From: Natronococcus sp. AD-5
GTDB lineage: Archaea > Halobacteriota > Halobacteria > Halobacteriales > Natrialbaceae
Assembly: GCF_030734285.1 (NCBI RefSeq)
Contig: NZ_CP132294.1
Location: 3,596,001 to 3,660,000 of the forward strand
Direction: 5' to 3'
Length of the DNA: 64,000 nucleotides
A program made the position numbers and the translations under genes. Shown here one piece after another: positions 1,972 through 43,560 of the stretch. Positions within the stretch are counted from its first letter, which is position 1. Every line of letters begins with the position of its first letter. The notes under the pieces are model-generated. The model was not told the origin of the DNA. It ran no database searches and saw only the letters and a list, made by a program, of their open reading frames with translations.

Positions 1972-2072
1972 TACGCGTCCGATTTCCGCCGTGGCGATCT
2001 TCCGTCTCCGATACGTTCCGAAAATCGCCGTCCAGTACGTTCATTGTATTCTAGACGTATGGTCGGGTAGGA

Positions 2073-3041
2073 ATGGATCGCCGCCAGTATCTTCGGACCG
2101 GATTCTCTCTCGCGTGCTGTAGCGTCATCGCCGGCTGTCTCGACGAGGTCGACGCAGCCACCGGATCGGACGACGGAGCCGACGTCGAGGTGACGGACCG
2201 GACCGGCGAGCGCGCGCTCGCCCGGGCGGTCGGCCGGTTGAACGACGCGGCGCTCGCACTCGAGGTCGACGACCTCGAGGAGGACGAGGGAACGTTCGAT
2301 CCCGCGGAGCCGCGCGAACTGCTCGCCGCCGCGCGGGCGTACCTCGAGACCGCCGCCGCCGAACTCGAGGACGATCGCCAGCCCGACGTCGACGAACTGC
2401 GCGCGTACGCGTCCGTTCTCGAGGCGCTGGTCGACGTCGCCGAAACCGTCACCGACGACGCCCACGAGGACGACGTCGACGACGTCACCGACGCGATCGC
2501 GGATGGCCGGCTCGAGGAGGCGTCGGAAACCGTCGACGACCTGGCCGGAACGTTCGACCGTACGGAGAAGCGGTTCGATACCACCGAGTCCGACCTCGAG
2601 TCGCTCGACGCCGACAGACTCGACGCGCTCTCGATCGTCGATCTCGCGGAGATCGAGGCGGGCGCGTCGACTCTCGGCGACGTCCTGGCGTCGATGGTCG
2701 CGCTCGTAACCGCCCTCGAGTCGACGGTCGAGGGGTACGAGTGCCTCGAGCGCGGCGAGGAACGCACCGACGCTGAGGAGTACGAACGCGCCACCGAGTC
2801 GTTCCTCGAGGCCCGGGAGGCGTTCGCCGCGTCGACGGCGACCCTCGAAGACGGACGAGCGGACGCACCGACCGGACTCGAACCGCACTTCGAGACCGGA
2901 CTGTGCCAGAACGATCACCTGGAAACCGCGGCCGACCACTTCGTCGCGGCCACCGAGGCGACGACGGATCGCGATCCGCACACCGCGCGGCGACGACGGG
3001 AGGACGCCGAGGCGGCGCTCGAGTCCGTCGACTACTGTTAG
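2073..3041 (+). CDS. Tat lipoprotein of unknown function, helical and acidic
   Basis: 322 residues. The N-terminus has a twin-arginine signal (MDRRQYLRTG) and a lipobox ending IAGC, so it is probably exported folded by Tat and lipid-anchored at Cys22. The mature part is very acidic and predicted almost wholly helical, with repeated leucine/alanine heptad-like patterns (for example ALARAVGRLNDAALALEVDDLEE and later TPR-like stretches near 240-320). I recognise no enzymatic motif. It converges on the CBS-MaoC gene with a 4-base overlap of the two stop regions (3038-3041). A surface or periplasm-like binding role is possible but is only inference. Confidence 0.85.
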   Translation: MDRRQYLRTGFSLACCSVIAGCLDEVDAATGSDDGADVEVTDRTGERALARAVGRLNDAALALEVDDLEEDEGTFDPAEPRELLAAARAYLETAAAELEDDRQPDVDELRAYASVLEALVDVAETVTDDAHEDDVDDVTDAIADGRLEEASETVDDLAGTFDRTEKRFDTTESDLESLDADRLDALSIVDLAEIEAGASTLGDVLASMVALVTALESTVEGYECLERGEERTDAEEYERATESFLEAREAFAASTATLEDGRADAPTGLEPHFETGLCQNDHLETAADHFVAATEATTDRDPHTARRRREDAEAALESVDYC

Positions 3042-3994
3042 GCCGGCGCGGCCCGCTCGAGAACCGATTCGGGCGGTAACTCGTCGACGAGAACGACCGA
3101 ATCGCCCTCGAGGACGACCTCGTCGGAGCCGTCGCGGACGGTCGTTTCGATGCGGTACTTCGATCCGCCGAGGGCGTCGGTCACCTCGCAGACGGCGGTG
3201 ACGCGGTCGCCGATCGAGAGCGGCGCGAGGAAGCTACTCTCCTGCGAGAGGTAGATCGTCAATCCGGGCAGGCGCGCGAGCGCGGCGCTGATCAGCCCGT
3301 TCGCGAGGACGCCGTGGACGATCGGCTGCCCGAAGCGCGTCTCGGCGGCGTAGTCGGCGTCGAGGTGGAGCCGGTTCGTGTCGCCGGTCGCCTCGGCGAA
3401 GGTCTCGACGTCCTTCGCGGTGACGGGTTTCGAGAACGTGGCGACGTCGCCGACGGAGACGGTCGACTCGTCCTCGCCGTGGTACTCGAACGCCCAGTCG
3501 TCGCGTTCGTAGAGGGTGTCGGACCGTACCTGGCGTCGCGGGTGCTCGGCATCGGTCCCGCCCACGTGGTGACTCAGGTGCGGGACGAAGTACGACAGCT
3601 CCGTCGTCGTGAGGATGCCGACGAGCGCGCCGTCTTCGTCGTCTCCGCGCTCGTCCGTTTCGGGATCGCCGCCCTCGACGACCGGAAGGTGCTCGAGCCC
3701 CGTCGTGCGCAGTCGCTCGGCGGCGTCGACGATCGAGGCGTCGGCGCCGATCGTCTCGAGCGGCCGGGACATCGCGTCGGCGACCTCGAGGCCGCCGAGG
3801 TCCTGGCGATCGCAGAGACAGCTCGCGAAGTCGCCCTCGGTGACGATACCGGTCGGCCGGTCGTCGCGGACGACGACGACCGAACTGACGCGTTCGTCGC
3901 GCATCAGCGTCGCAGCGTCGGCGACGGTCGCGTCCGGCCGGACGGTGACGACGTCGGTGACCATGATCTCCGAGACGGGTATCGTGCGGTGCAT
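3038..3994 (-). CDS. CBS-domain pair fused to a MaoC-like hydratase
   Basis: 318 residues. Two CBS modules occupy about residues 8-135 (IMVTDVVTVRPDATVADAA and DAMSRPLETIGADASIVDAA), normally adenine-nucleotide sensors. An acidic linker follows (about 105-120 and 145-180), then a hot-dog-fold MaoC domain (about 185-310) with the hydratase-type signature ATGDTNRLHLD...FGQPIVHG. MaoC domains hydrate enoyl-CoA substrates. The fusion suggests an acyl-CoA hydratase tuned by cellular energy state; the domains are clear and the regulation is inferred. ATG 3994 gives a complete first CBS module. It ends against the preceding lipoprotein gene on the other strand. Confidence 0.88.
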   Translation of the reverse strand: MHRTIPVSEIMVTDVVTVRPDATVADAATLMRDERVSSVVVVRDDRPTGIVTEGDFASCLCDRQDLGGLEVADAMSRPLETIGADASIVDAAERLRTTGLEHLPVVEGGDPETDERGDDEDGALVGILTTTELSYFVPHLSHHVGGTDAEHPRRQVRSDTLYERDDWAFEYHGEDESTVSVGDVATFSKPVTAKDVETFAEATGDTNRLHLDADYAAETRFGQPIVHGVLANGLISAALARLPGLTIYLSQESSFLAPLSIGDRVTAVCEVTDALGGSKYRIETTVRDGSDEVVLEGDSVVLVDELPPESVLERAAPA

Positions 3995-4070
3995 ACCGAC
4001 TCCCTACGTCGACCCGGCCTATCAACACCGCACCCTCGCGCCGTCGGCGCGGCCGATCGCTCGAGCCGCC

Positions 4071-4484
4071 TCAGGTGTCGACCGGTCTCCCGTCTTCGGT
4101 CGGCGGGGCGACGTGGTCGACGTAGCTCTCGAGGTCCGGTTCCTCGACGCGCACGCGGACGGCGATCTCGCCGAGTTCGTCCGGTTCGCCGACCGAGAAG
4201 TTGACTCGATCCTCGAAGGCCGCCTGTTTCTTCAGCGCGAACGAGAACGCGTCGCCCTCGCGGTTGGCGAAGAACTCCCCACGGGCGGTATCGAGGATCT
4301 CCTGGCGGTGCAACAGTTCGGAGAAGTGATCCAGCGAGTGGGTCTCGCCTCTGATCTCGCCGAACGACTCCTCGAGTTCGGCGTTGGGGAAAACGTTCGT
4401 GACGGCGTCGGCGACGCGGCTCGTCACTTCGGTATCGTACACCGGCGCCGTGATCTCGACGTCGACGCGGTAGACGTCGGTCAC
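4071..4484 (-). CDS. UPF0201 family RNA-binding-like protein
   Basis: 137 residues from a GTG start (VTDVYRVDVEITAPVYDTEV). Its GTG overlaps the TGA of the upstream UPF0200 gene as GTGA (4481-4484), so the two are translationally coupled. Sequence landmarks typical of the archaeal UPF0201 family are the first strand VDVEITAPV, the middle FGEIRGETHSLDHFSELLHRQEILDTAR, and FALKKQAAFEDRVNFSV followed by the ...ELGEIAVRV strand. The family is thought to have an RNA-binding-like fold and is conserved next to the P-loop kinase gene. The precise role is unknown. Confidence 0.85.
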   Translation of the reverse strand: MTDVYRVDVEITAPVYDTEVTSRVADAVTNVFPNAELEESFGEIRGETHSLDHFSELLHRQEILDTARGEFFANREGDAFSFALKKQAAFEDRVNFSVGEPDELGEIAVRVRVEEPDLESYVDHVAPPTEDGRPVDT

Positions 4485-5068
4485 GGCTGTCGAACCTCGT
4501 TTCCCGGGGTTTCGGTTACGCGCGACTCGTCCCCGACGATCGCCCGGATCCGATCGTGGAACGCCTCGAGCGAGTCGGTGTTCTCCACGACGACGTCGGC
4601 GCGGTCCATCGCGTCGTCCATGCCGAAGCCGCGCTCGCGCTCGTCGCGGGCGGCGAGCCCCTCGCCGCCGTCGCCCTCGCCGACGTCGCGGCCGCGGGCG
4701 TCGATGCGCTCGGCCCGGACCTCGAAGGGGGCTTCGATGCTGACGAGCGTGAACGCGTCTTCGAACTGCTCCTCGAAGACGTCGACCTCGACGTCCGACC
4801 GGATGCCGTCGACCAGCACCGCGTCGTGATCCTCGAGGCGGTCTTCGATCATCGGGAGCGAGCGCTCGGCGATGGCCGCCGGTCCGTTCTCGTCGCGCAG
4901 CGCCTGGGCGACGCTCCCGTGGTCTTTCGCGGGGTCGAGCCCGCGGTCGGCCGTCTCCTGGCGGACGACGTCGCCCATCGTCACTACGGGGATTCCCTCC
5001 TCGCGTGCGACGGTGGCGGCCTCGCCCTTGCCGCTGCCGGGAAGTCCCACCGTTCCGATGACGTGCAT
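4481..5068 (-). CDS. UPF0200 family P-loop kinase-like protein
   Basis: 195 residues starting MHVIGTVGLPGSGKGEAATVAREEG. The Walker A motif GLPGSGKG is at about residues 8-15, followed by VVTMGDVVR and an acidic lid-like region. It resembles adenylate or dephospho-CoA kinases, but members of this archaeal family (UPF0200) have no firm activity. The frame is open further upstream, but ATG 5068 is preferred: it gives the canonical N-terminal strand and lies about 27 bases downstream of a minus-strand TATA-like CCTTATGCAC (about 5090-5100). It forms a two-gene operon with the UPF0201 gene through a 4-base stop/start overlap. Confidence 0.87.
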   Translation of the reverse strand: MHVIGTVGLPGSGKGEAATVAREEGIPVVTMGDVVRQETADRGLDPAKDHGSVAQALRDENGPAAIAERSLPMIEDRLEDHDAVLVDGIRSDVEVDVFEEQFEDAFTLVSIEAPFEVRAERIDARGRDVGEGDGGEGLAARDERERGFGMDDAMDRADVVVENTDSLEAFHDRIRAIVGDESRVTETPGNEVRQP

Positions 5069-5434
5069 CGAGAAGACGTACCGGCGAGACGTGCATAAGG
5101 GCTGTGTTCGTCGCTCGAGGGAGTTCGATCGGATAGCCCGTCGATAGCGGCCCGGTTGTTTCTGCTGCAACGTATTAGGAATCAATTGTGTGTAACGGGC
5201 GCTTCGTCGATTTGGAGCGTCGGACGTCGGCTCCCTCGCGCCGGCGGTCCGATCGCGGCGCGCAGTCACGTTCGATTTCTGATCACTAACTATTTCATCC
5301 AAGAAACAACGGTCGTGATCGAAACCGTTCATCTCCCTCGATCGAACCGCGATAACTCGTCTGAATCGGAACCAATCGTCGAAACGGAGTGTGGCTGTTA
5401 TTTACCACTTTGTCATTGGCCTCGCGTGCGTACC
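5069..5434. other. Divergent intergenic region
   Basis: No gene is supported. It contains the minus-strand promoter for the UPF0200 gene at its left end. TTATTTA (about 5398-5404) lies about 30 bases before ATG 5435 and fits the TATA box of the acidic lipoprotein gene. The middle (5150-5350) is relatively AT-rich compared with the flanks. Confidence 0.45.
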
Positions 5435-5872
5435 ATGACAAAATCATCCCTTGACAGGCGTCGATTCACGAAGGTAATCGGTGCCGGTATGGTCGCGGCT
5501 ATCGCCGGCTGTTCGGACGCTGAGGATGCCGTCAACGGCGAAGATGAGGAAGACGATGGAACGGAGAACGGTGACGGGCTCGGTGAAAACGGCGAGAACG
5601 ACGGAAACGGCGGAATGGAAGAAGACGATATGGGTGAGGGCGAAGGGAACGGGATGAGCGAAGACGAGAACGAGACGGAAGAGGGCGGCACGGGCGAAGA
5701 CGACGGCACGGGCGAAGGCAACGAGACGGAAGAGGGCGGTATGGGCGAAGACGAGAACGGGACGGAAGAGGGCGGTATGGGCGAAGACGAGAACGGGACG
5801 GAGGAAGGCGGCACGGGCGAAGACGACGGCATGGGTGAAGGCAACGAGACGGAAGAGGACGGCGGCCTTTAA
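5435..5872 (+). CDS. Acidic low-complexity Tat lipoprotein
   Basis: 145 residues. The N-terminus MTKSSLDRRRFTKVIGAG with a lipobox ending IAGC (Cys26) is a Tat lipoprotein signal. Everything after Cys26 is Glu/Asp/Gly/Asn/Thr with no hydrophobic core, so the mature protein is a lipid-tethered, highly negative and probably disordered tail. Tandem repeats of 12 and 17 residues fill residues 74-144. ATG 5435 is chosen over upstream starts because it precedes the twin-arginine motif and follows a TATA-like TTATTTA by about 30 bases. The function is unknown; ion buffering or surface hydration is conceivable but not shown. Confidence 0.75.
   Translation: MTKSSLDRRRFTKVIGAGMVAAIAGCSDAEDAVNGEDEEDDGTENGDGLGENGENDGNGGMEEDDMGEGEGNGMSEDENETEEGGTGEDDGTGEGNETEEGGMGEDENGTEEGGMGEDENGTEEGGTGEDDGMGEGNETEEDGGL
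5654..5866 (+). repeat. Coding tandem repeats, 36- and 51-base units
   Basis: Within the acidic lipoprotein, a 12-residue unit (MGEDENGTEEGG type) and a 17-residue unit (TGEDDGTGEGNETEEGG type) occur in the order 12-17-12-12-17. The two adjacent 12-residue units are almost identical at DNA level, pointing to recent duplication by slippage or unequal exchange. Confidence 0.85.
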
Positions 5873-6248
5873 CGCGGCACCCGGCGAACTGGGCTGACGT
5901 CAGTTCCGGGCACTTTCCCTTCCGGTTCGATCGACTGACCGATAGCCGCCGGCGCGAAACGCGTCGGTCTCCGCGTGATGACTCGAGAGTCGATCGAGGA
6001 GTGTCACGATAGCGGGTCGACGCGGCTGGTCGCCGCCCGTCGTTCGACGGTACGGACCCTCCGCCCGACGCGCTCGTCGGTCGCGTTCGGTTCGATTCTC
6101 CGTCCGTCGCCGACCTCCTCCAGGTGGTCGTCTCGACGCGGTTCGCCACCGGGGTCGCGCTACTCGATCCCCGTGCCGGCCGCCGGCCGCATCCCGCGGA
6201 CGGGGAATCCCAACTGCTTATATCGATCGATCGATGATTCGTACTCGA
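5873..6248. other. Intergenic region ending in the tRNA-Arg promoter
   Basis: I see no gene in the first 340 bases. TTATAT at 6218-6223 is centred about 28 bases before the tRNA-Arg 5' end at 6249 and is its likely TATA box. Confidence 0.55.
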
Positions 6249-6323
6249 GGGCACGTAGCTCAGTCCGGATAGAGCGTCGGACTTCTAATCCGACGGTCGT
6301 GGGTTCAAATCCCATCGTGCCCG
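6249..6323 (+). tRNA. tRNA-Arg (anticodon TCT)
   Basis: Folds as a complete cloverleaf without an intron. The acceptor GGGCACG (6249-6255) pairs with CGTGCCC (6316-6322), with discriminator G at 6323. The anticodon stem TCGGA/TCCGA encloses loop CTTCTAA, giving TCT. The T-arm is GTGGG TTCAAAT CCCAT. CCA is not encoded. It is followed directly by a structured element carrying a degenerate copy of its 3' end. Confidence 0.95.
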
Positions 6324-6429
6324 TTATCTGCGAACACCGTGAGCAGTAACGGCATCGGGATTTGAACGAGACCGAGGCTCTGCGCTTGACGCAGGTTCTC
6401 GGACGTAGTTCACAATCCCATCGCGCCCG
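6324..6429 (+). repeat. tRNA-trailing palindromic element with degenerate tRNA-Arg 3' copy
   Basis: A small hairpin (CTGC...GCAG, 6328-6346) comes first. Then GGGATTTGAAC (6357-6367), the exact reverse complement of the T-arm of the preceding tRNA, can pair with GTTCACAATCCC (6408-6419) with one bulged base. Inside are stems CCGAG/CTCGG (6372-6376/6398-6402) and CTGCG/CGCAG (6380-6384/6390-6394). Bases 6408-6429 repeat the tRNA 3' end (6303-6323) with one inserted base in the T-loop and T to C in the acceptor. A closely similar architecture follows tRNA-Pro at 43366-43487. Confidence 0.7.
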
Positions 6430-6704
6430 TCGATTCGTTCCCGCGTCCACTCGTCGCAGAATTACGGACCGAGATGGATCGCCCTGGACGAGTCGAGCGC
6501 AGCCGTAGTGTGCGCGTTCTTGCGTCGTTCATCCTTCCTTGTTACTACTGTTAAGAAGTATGCAACTAACCGTAACGAAGGGTTTCTGACGGAATCCGTT
6601 CTCGTGGAGTCGCTGTCGGGCGCCGACGCAACTCGCTCGAGCAGGCGTCCCGGAGCACGGACAAACGGGCGCGAGACGACCGCACCGCCGACAGGAAACG
6701 GGAT

Positions 6705-7790
6705 TCAGACTCGAACGCGTCGCTTCTCGAGATCGGCCTCGAGCCGCCTCGCGGCCTCGAGTCGCAGCTTCTTCGCGCGGCGTTTCGTGAGCCGCGAGTC
6801 GGGCAGGCGAGCCGCGAGCGGATCGTACGTCGAGGGGGAGAACCCGAGTTCCTGGAGGTAGCGCCGGACGCTCGCGTCGCCGAGCCCGTCGCGGATCACC
6901 GTGTCGGTGACTTCCTCGACGGTTTCGAACGCGGGGAGCGGCATTTCGTCACCGGTGTCGCCGGCCGACGATTCGCCGTCGTCGATGACGGTACCGCGGG
7001 CGTCGGCGTGGGTGACGATCGATCGAACCGCCTCCGCCAGCCGGAGAACCTGACTCGGCAGGGCCGCGTCGGGCGAGCGCCACTCGACGGTCGGCATCGC
7101 CGTTCGCAGTCGGACCGGGTTCCAGACCGCGTCGTAAGGATCGAACTCGTCGTCGAAGGCGTCCGGATCGACGCCGCGCTCGAGTGCGCGCTCGCGGAAC
7201 GTCTCGTAGGCGTCCTCGAGGCGGTCCTCCCACTCGGCGACGCTGTCGACGTAGGGCCGGAGCTGTCCCTGTTCCGGACAGGGTTCGTAACACGAGCGCC
7301 GGTAGAGGTACGGACGAGCGCACTCGAGGAGTCGCTCGCCGCGGTAGTGCGACGAGCTGTTGACGAGCGCGAAGGCGGGATCGAGCGCCGTCAGCGCGTT
7401 GAGCTGATCGACGACGTTCGACTGCTCGAAGTGCACGTGCGTGCCGGCGCAGACGCGGGCGTCGTCGAACGTCGGGCCCACGATCCGGCGCTGGAGGTCG
7501 GTTCCCCGCTTGTCGCGGTACGGGATCTCGGCCGGCGAGGCGTGCAGCGGCGTCGCCAGCGGGACGAGTCGCTTGTCCTGTTCGTGCGCCGCGTCGACGA
7601 CGGTTCGGATCCGGCCGCGGAACTCCTCGCGGAGTTCGGCCGTCGACGAACACGGGGTCGTCTTGATCTCGAGCATCGGCTCGACGAACTCGGGGTCGAC
7701 CTGCGTCGAGACGTCGAGCAGCGTTTCGGGGGGTACCAGGTCGCCGTCGTCGTCGATAACCCAGTACTCCACCTCGAGGCTAGTGTTCAT
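6705..7790 (-). CDS. Glutamate-cysteine ligase-like (GCS2 family) protein
   Basis: 361 residues from ATG 7790 (MNTSLEVEYWVIDDDGDLV). Family landmarks are the N-terminal VEYWVID (equivalent to the GVEEE strand), LEIKTTPC, the central CAGTHVHFEQ with metal/substrate histidines, and PTVEWRSPDAA near the C-terminus. GCS2 enzymes join glutamate to an amine; in halophilic archaea gamma-glutamylcysteine is the main thiol, made by a GCS2-family GshA. This protein is divergent at its N-terminus, so it may be a paralogue acting on another amine. An in-frame extension to 8000 exists, but its composition is not coding-like. No operon partner is evident. Confidence 0.8.
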   Translation of the reverse strand: MNTSLEVEYWVIDDDGDLVPPETLLDVSTQVDPEFVEPMLEIKTTPCSSTAELREEFRGRIRTVVDAAHEQDKRLVPLATPLHASPAEIPYRDKRGTDLQRRIVGPTFDDARVCAGTHVHFEQSNVVDQLNALTALDPAFALVNSSSHYRGERLLECARPYLYRRSCYEPCPEQGQLRPYVDSVAEWEDRLEDAYETFRERALERGVDPDAFDDEFDPYDAVWNPVRLRTAMPTVEWRSPDAALPSQVLRLAEAVRSIVTHADARGTVIDDGESSAGDTGDEMPLPAFETVEEVTDTVIRDGLGDASVRRYLQELGFSPSTYDPLAARLPDSRLTKRRAKKLRLEAARRLEADLEKRRVRV

Positions 7791-9302: not shown

Positions 9303-9397
9303 ACGCCCGCTAGTCGCCCCGGAATCATAAACACCGAACCTTTTCCGCCTCGGGTTCGCTCGCTTCGCTCGCTTACCGCTCGGCGCAAAAACGTCCT

Positions 9398-32120: not shown

Positions 32121-32150
32121 GGCGGCCGCTCACGCTGTTCGCGGTCGGCG

Positions 32151-43365: not shown

Positions 43366-43487
43366 TGGGATCGCCCGGATTGTGAACTACGCCGAGACGT
43401 GCTCACTTCGTTGCGCGCGTCTCGTCTAGTTCAAACCCGGGCTCCTTCCAATTGCTGCTGCTCGCGAATTTGCTCGCAGCAGAAATA
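43366..43487 (-). repeat. tRNA-trailing palindromic element with degenerate tRNA-Pro 3' copy
   Basis: Immediately downstream of tRNA-Pro on its strand. A first hairpin CTGCTGC/GCAGCAG (43455-43461/43476-43482) is followed by CCGGGTTTGAAC (complement of 43429-43440), able to pair with GTTCACAATCCGG (complement of 43375-43387). Inside is a 7-bp stem CGAGACG/CGTCTCG (43393-43399/43418-43424). Bases 43366-43387 repeat the tRNA 3' end (43488-43508) with one inserted T-loop base. The core CGTAGTTCACAATCC is identical to that after tRNA-Arg. Confidence 0.7.
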
Positions 43488-43560
43488 TGGGATCGCCCGG
43501 ATTTGAACCGGGGTCACGGGCACCCAAGGCCCGAAGTATACCAGGCTAACCCACGATCCC
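43488..43560 (-). tRNA. tRNA-Pro (anticodon TGG)
   Basis: The acceptor GGGATCG (43560-43554) pairs with CGATCCC (43495-43489), with discriminator A at 43488. The anticodon stem CGGGC/GCCCG encloses CTTGGGT, giving TGG. T-arm GTTCAAAT present; the D-stem has a U-U mismatch but is otherwise normal. No intron, no encoded CCA. TATA-like GCTTTATGG (43592-43584) is centred 28 bases upstream. Confidence 0.94.

Follow-up and report, generated by a model that had tools for sequence, protein, structure and literature searches.

What is the structured stretch of DNA that directly follows the tRNA-Arg(TCT) gene of Natronococcus sp. AD-5, where the 3' end of the tRNA is repeated and its T-arm is found again in inverted orientation? 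Mobile DNA classically integrates at tRNA genes, and the original prediction for this locus offered two readings, a conserved 3'-trailer RNA structure or a decayed palindromic element that targets tRNA genes. We consider both here, beginning with the 64,000 nucleotides of the genome that were analysed as one piece (the window) and proceeding to the rest of that genome and to other Halobacteria.

The unit behind tRNA-Arg(TCT)

The tRNA-Arg(TCT) gene that anchors the unit occupies positions 6249..6323 on the plus strand (ARAGORN; Rfam RF00005, 73.3 bits), and four parts follow it on the same strand. Sequence defines a first small hairpin, HP1, at 6324..6349, of the type TTA-CTGC-GA-AC..GT-GA-GCAG-TAA. 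The left arm (6350..6367) is an inverted copy of the tRNA end, recognised by its sequence and by its covariation with the tail. The central hairpin, HP2, of type A with AGACCGAGGCTCTGCG-CTTGA-CGCAGGTTCTCGGACGT, lies at 6368..6407 and is defined by a class-wide core and a consensus fold. Finally, the tail (6408..6429), identified by sequence, repeats the tRNA 3' end in direct orientation and carries the inserted-C T-loop variant GTTCACAATC. The T-arm of the tRNA, GTTCAAATCCC at 6303-6313, has its exact reverse complement, GGGATTTGAAC, at 6357-6367 in the left arm, and the tail GTTCACAATCCCATCGCGCCCG is the tRNA-Arg end with one inserted base (TTCACAAT in place of TTCAAAT) and one substitution. 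HP2 contains the stems CCGAG (6372-6376) / CTCGG (6398-6402) and CTGCG (6380-6384) / CGCAG (6390-6394), and its apex is a CTTGA loop, not a GNA loop. The repeated tRNA end with its altered T-loop, the inverted arm able to pair with that copy and the two inner stems had all been described beforehand, and every sequence statement made then about 6324-6429 is correct.

Folded as RNA, the sense strand of 6324-6429 reaches -41.2 kcal/mol (z -2.87; 1 of 200 shuffles did as well) and forms the expected stem between arm and tail, with the extra C as a single bulge; folded as DNA it has a z of -2.57. HP1, which had not been noticed before as a separate hairpin, is absent from the single-sequence MFE structure and partly formed in the centroid. 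Since the T-loop bases are paired and not looped, the unit does not, strictly speaking, mimic a T-arm. The unit sequence is identical between congener G007 and Natronococcus jeotgali DSM 18795 (L020 vs L107).

A scan of the window against Rfam at gathering score returned only its two tRNAs and no family match for the unit; a mir-239 match (20.1 bits, E 0.027, where the gathering score is 49) is weak and a chance one. Judged from the sequence, which has tandem G-A without a 3-nt bulge, the unit is also a poor fit to the K-turn, bulge-helix-bulge and box C/D motifs. Upstream of the tRNA gene, at 5156-5872 (+), lies an acidic low-complexity ORF of repeated E/D/G-rich units (GEDENGTEEGGM). Tandem-GA hairpin motifs (GCGAGCGAAGCGAGC and GCGAACAGCGTGAGC) also occur in the window at 9358-9372 (-) and 32128-32142 (-), where there is no tRNA; general haloarchaeal tandem-GA hairpins of this sort may share an origin with HP1 and HP2.

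Units elsewhere in the Natronococcus genome

The second tRNA of the window, tRNA-Pro(TGG) at 43488..43560 on the minus strand (ARAGORN; Rfam), is followed by a second unit of the same kind at 43366..43487 (-), not part of the original prediction, with another HP2 type (TAGACGAGACGCGCGCAACGAAGTGAGCACGTCTCGGCGTAG), an inserted-C tail and an RNA fold z of -5.70. BLAST of the tRNA-Arg(TCT) region against its own genome (5.17 Mb) found copies behind tRNA-Thr, tRNA-Lys and tRNA-Ser, and tRNA-Lys(TTT) is followed by a diverged unit. By hand count, made from a table over genome stretches and excluding the tandem tRNA-Asp and a match 1 kb away, a copy of the tRNA's own end lies within 250 nt of about 20 of the 49 tRNA genes (about 40%).

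At two tRNA genes the unit has been pushed away by inserted DNA. A 3.9-kb element in tRNA-Phe carries a tyrosine integrase (PF00589; L039 1956-2969, genome position C1:3810955-3811968, minus strand) and sits between the tRNA and the unit; the element's own tRNA-end copy has no inverted arm just upstream of it. Likewise, a 5.1-kb insert without a recognised integrase (L038 about 2050-7110; C1 about 2991550-2996609) separates tRNA-Arg(CCG) from its displaced unit, and short HalOD1-like ORFs flank this insert region on both sides.

A family found throughout the Halobacteria

The layout common to the units is HP1, an inverted copy of the tRNA T-arm and end, HP2, and then tRNA positions ~53-73 repeated directly; their length is about 90-190 bp. 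BLAST matched the tRNA-Arg region in 32 of 41 related genomes. When an exact HP2-core pattern was scanned over 84,980 species, one genome each, it matched Halobacteria records only, in Haloferax, Halorubrum, Haladaptatus, Natrinema, Natronococcus, Halosimplex, Halorientalis, Halorhabdus and other genera. We read 84 of these exact-core copies, 81 of which had upstream DNA and hence were testable; all 81 lie on the same strand as a tRNA gene and 34-497 nt (median 71) downstream of it. The preceding tRNAs represent 25 anticodon types, and nearly all of the copies end in the sequence of their own tRNA, odd T-loops included (His TTCGATTC, Val TTCAAATCTGCC, Lys TTCAACTCCC). In every one of the 81 the body between the tRNA-end copies is gene-less, about 0.1 kb long and without an integrase.

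A structure-only pattern, GATTTGAA-N22-50-GTTCAAATC, was found in 130 of 145 Halobacteria genomes and 55 of 58 genera, with 0 matches in the control; outside the class it matched 3 of 101 sampled genomes of the phylum, all three matches being AT-rich and without the hairpin. Applied to sixteen genomes without a strict-pattern or BLAST match, a covariance model built from 29 copies found matches in 12 of them, largely with other T-loop sequences, which rules out that the family is missing wherever the strict pattern gives zero matches. Of 16 covariance-model loci that were read, 14 lie directly behind a tRNA and 2 behind a tRNA-end sequence. In 192 tRNA contexts, a set biased by the many loci that were picked via the element, a copy of the tRNA's own tail is present downstream in 140 and upstream in 3, and another tRNA's tail is present in 17. 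At two loci (L018, L023) tRNA-Asp and tRNA-Gly genes are duplicated along with their own units.

Collections of mobile DNA gave little. Viral contigs contained 53 matches to the 15-mer GACCGAGGTTCTGCG, none of them with arm, HP2 and tail together (three loose chance pairings only), and a phage collection contained no match to the unit. The plasmid scan yielded one match, on a large Natronorubrum replicon that also bears genes such as that for ribosomal protein L3.

Covariation and strand preference

In 68 type-A units, 14 pairs of the arm-HP2-tail helix have changed on both sides, giving 108 doubly changed cells; none of 500 shuffles equalled this, and slid controls reached at most 44 cells. 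Within a unit, arm and tail pair in 85.8% of the cells of positions 4-12, a figure that falls to 74.4 +/- 0.9% once tails are swapped between units. The changes in the helix track tRNA type across genera, and the covariation controls remove shared ancestry only in part. Two G-U pairs are invariant in the helix alignment (columns 24-48, GU in 68/68; columns 26-46, UG in 68/68), and a minority of copies (18/105) have a bulged base.

The sense strand folds more stably than the antisense strand, by a mean of 5.9 kcal/mol (123 units vs 17, p 2e-17), and does so when type A is excluded (46 vs 14, p 2e-4); upstream control DNA shows no such difference. In the Natronococcus genome alone the trend is the same and weak (13 vs 3, p 0.04). 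The difference between strands is larger with RNA energy parameters than with DNA ones. Short motifs show the same polarity: of the HP1 motifs, GCGAAC occurs in 140 units 80 times in sense and 6 in antisense and GTGAGC 75 times against 2, and GCGNAGC occurs 97 times against 9. Among apical loops there are 76 of C(GNA)G against 13 of its complement, 3 of GNRA and 0 of UNCG. C-G-closed GNA triloops, for example d(GCGAAGC), are unusually stable in DNA, and the C(GNA)G loops are as expected of stable DNA hairpins more than of RNA ones; RNA hairpins would presumably prefer GNRA or UNCG loops.

Tails with an inserted pyrimidine, GTTCA[C/T]AATC, recur behind Arg, Trp, Phe, Ser, Lys and Pro tRNAs in several genera, and this T-loop is present in none of the tRNAs examined. 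The inner part of the right arm is therefore the element's own, and the acceptor part follows the tRNA. Taken together, the units behind other tRNAs, the compensatory changes and the finding that 6408-6429 is not the far att site of a known element strongly support a conserved structured element behind tRNA genes, as the original prediction held, over a plain att scar. A covariance model, an approach it had proposed, yielded matches behind tRNAs in further Halobacteria genomes. What did not stand is decay, in that the family as a whole is intact and structurally constrained and it is individual copies that decay (L227).

Turnover of whole units

At the orthologous tRNA-Arg(TCT) gene of nine congeners (a comparison from which the L233 copy was left out) HP2 is of type A, B or C, and one copy, that of G008, is decayed. 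Loci L228 and L229 have HP1 and flank in common and differ in HP2. Behind tRNA-Lys(CTT), G007 has two units, Y and X, three congeners have X only, the window genome has Y only, and the others have none. A precise empty site is seen at tRNA-Arg(CCG), where in L252 the tRNA abuts the sequence that is found 3' of the unit in L245, L247 and L250 (it was also set against L245/L246). Past that empty site (G006:C192, about 144550-144700) is a GC-rich segment with a partial tail, CTCACTCCCGTCGCGCCCG, at its end, probably the remnant of a second unit. In Natrinema strains the array at tRNA-Pro(CGG) has been rearranged, with HP1 and post-tail sequences exchanged. Of 232 contexts, 51 contain arrays of 2-4 units, and L148 has three identical tandem copies of 111 bp. 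Units are present or absent as precise wholes. Repeat-mediated deletion has been reported in Haloquadratum (PMC3119063), and precise absence can likewise arise through deletion between the 21-bp tails, so that losses need no special enzyme.

A proposed tRNA-anchored cassette and its rivals

The units are anchored at tRNA genes, their arms match the tRNA, their single-strand constraint lies in the sense strand, and they come and go whole. As our leading interpretation, at a probability of about 40%, we propose that the element in the window belongs, as a single unit, to a family of small tRNA-anchored hairpin cassettes found throughout the Halobacteria that would be recognised as folded single-stranded DNA and moved by a putative recombinase, functionally like an integron attC site; its close rival is a structured 3'-trailer RNA. 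The sense strand of a unit would fold as single-stranded DNA, the displaced strand of the heavily transcribed tRNA gene perhaps supplying that single strand. A putative recombinase would act at T-loop-like sites, namely TTCAAAT in the tRNA, its counterpart in the tail and the inverted one in the left arm, and recombination at these sites would insert, exchange or remove units at the tRNA end, with the tail keeping the tRNA gene whole. The outcome would be akin to the attC cassette arrays of integrons, though anchored at a tRNA gene and not itself such an array. The whole-unit turnover, the T-loop variant borne by the element and the DNA-type loops speak for a tRNA-targeting DNA element over an RNA; the location and strand bias of the units are equally expected of both. 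Against the cassette interpretation is the match of the arms to each tRNA type, since free movement between tRNA types would need rewriting, and its main weakness is what makes new units with tRNA-matched arms. The fullest form of the proposal, a class-wide integron-like system in which gene-less hairpin cassettes are read as folded single-stranded DNA at tRNA anchors, re-matched for each tRNA, and inserted, exchanged or lost by a putative recombinase, is doubtful.

The trailer RNA is quite plausible, if short of even odds. The tRNA transcript would run into the unit, whose fold would steer 3' processing, termination or tRNA turnover, while the arm could pair either with the tail or with the T-arm of the tRNA itself. 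The position of the units immediately downstream of tRNA genes on the same strand, the sense-strand constraint that includes G-U pairs, the compensatory changes and the near-universal occurrence in the class all agree with this, as do the two RNA 3' ends mapped downstream of tRNA-Pro in H. volcanii (PMC7237163). Yet in the window genome a unit adjoins only about 20 of the 49 tRNA genes, and in congeners units are lost or swapped; a copy of the acceptor end would be needless to such an RNA; many tRNAs are directly followed by a T-rich stretch; and the units have almost no GNRA or UNCG loops and no Rfam match at gathering score.

It is unlikely that the units are a selfish or neutral by-product, whose spread would be due to slippage, to recombination from tail to tail and to gene conversion between shared T-arm sequences, with neither a dedicated enzyme nor a host function. 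The identical tandem units of L148, the rearranged Natrinema array and the HP2 swap between L228 and L229 might be expected from such processes, but strong structural constraint and sense-strand specificity throughout the class would not, and units that follow different tRNAs share homology over only some 10 bp on each side.

A plain att scar, or the internally deleted remnant of an integrase-bearing element, is very improbable. Archaeal integrases do use tRNA 3'-end sites (PMC8371274), and the direct tRNA-end copy fits such an origin; this account is contradicted by the inverted arm, the covariation, the fixed small size (81 of 81 testable exact-core copies lie <500 bp from the tRNA) and the location of a true, separate integrase element at tRNA-Phe, and of the 5.1-kb insert at tRNA-Arg(CCG), between the tRNA and the unit. 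Membership among the IS200/IS605-derived palindromic repeats (REP, PATE), which are likewise short, palindromic, non-coding, strand-specific hairpins and in the case of PATEs common in haloarchaea (PMC3119063), is rejected as the least probable reading of all, for those repeats are dispersed in intergenic DNA whereas the exact core occurs only behind tRNA genes and the arms copy the neighbouring tRNA.

A search of the open-access literature, with subscription journals mostly outside it, found no description of haloarchaeal tRNA-end hairpin units, and on this basis and the absence of an Rfam match the family appears to be undescribed. A structured module that copies the gene before it has been overlooked in nearly every Halobacteria genome, and in one genome at ~40% of the tRNA genes. 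As a mobile folded-strand cassette it would represent a new kind of recombination system, and as an RNA it would add a widespread level of tRNA maturation or regulation that annotation has missed; either reading bears on how tRNA 3' ends, att sites and small RNAs are annotated in model haloarchaea, and the units are open to testing in genetically tractable species.

Comparison with known systems

The rtT repeats of E. coli tyrT also lie in tandem downstream of a tRNA gene, and each of them repeats its 3' end, but they are known from one locus in one lineage, unlike the class-wide, covarying haloarchaeal family with its many tRNAs. REP and PATE repeats are also small non-coding hairpin repeats with one favoured strand; the haloarchaeal units differ in being strictly tRNA-anchored and in having tRNA-matched arms. 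The tRNA 3'-end att sites of archaeal integrase elements (SNJ2 and pNOB8 types) share with the units a direct 3'-end duplication that leaves the tRNA intact, whereas the units have an inverted partner arm, conserved hairpins, a length of about 0.1 kb and no integrase; such integrase elements are present in the same genome, yet separate.

Integrons offer a structural analogy only. Their core site motif is GTTRRRY / RYYYAAC, and the arms of the units have instead the GTTCRANYC-type T-loop sequence plus an extra C. The attC site is, like a unit, imperfectly palindromic, being made up of outer boxes, an inner box, a small internal loop and a terminal hairpin that varies, with one base extrahelical; of its two strands one is favoured in the fold, and attC arrays are tandem small units behind an anchoring site (PMC8946536). 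The haloarchaeal units, in contrast, have no cassette genes, use a tRNA gene as their anchor and are confined to Halobacteria, and their outer boxes are copies of host tRNA sequence that covary with the tRNA.
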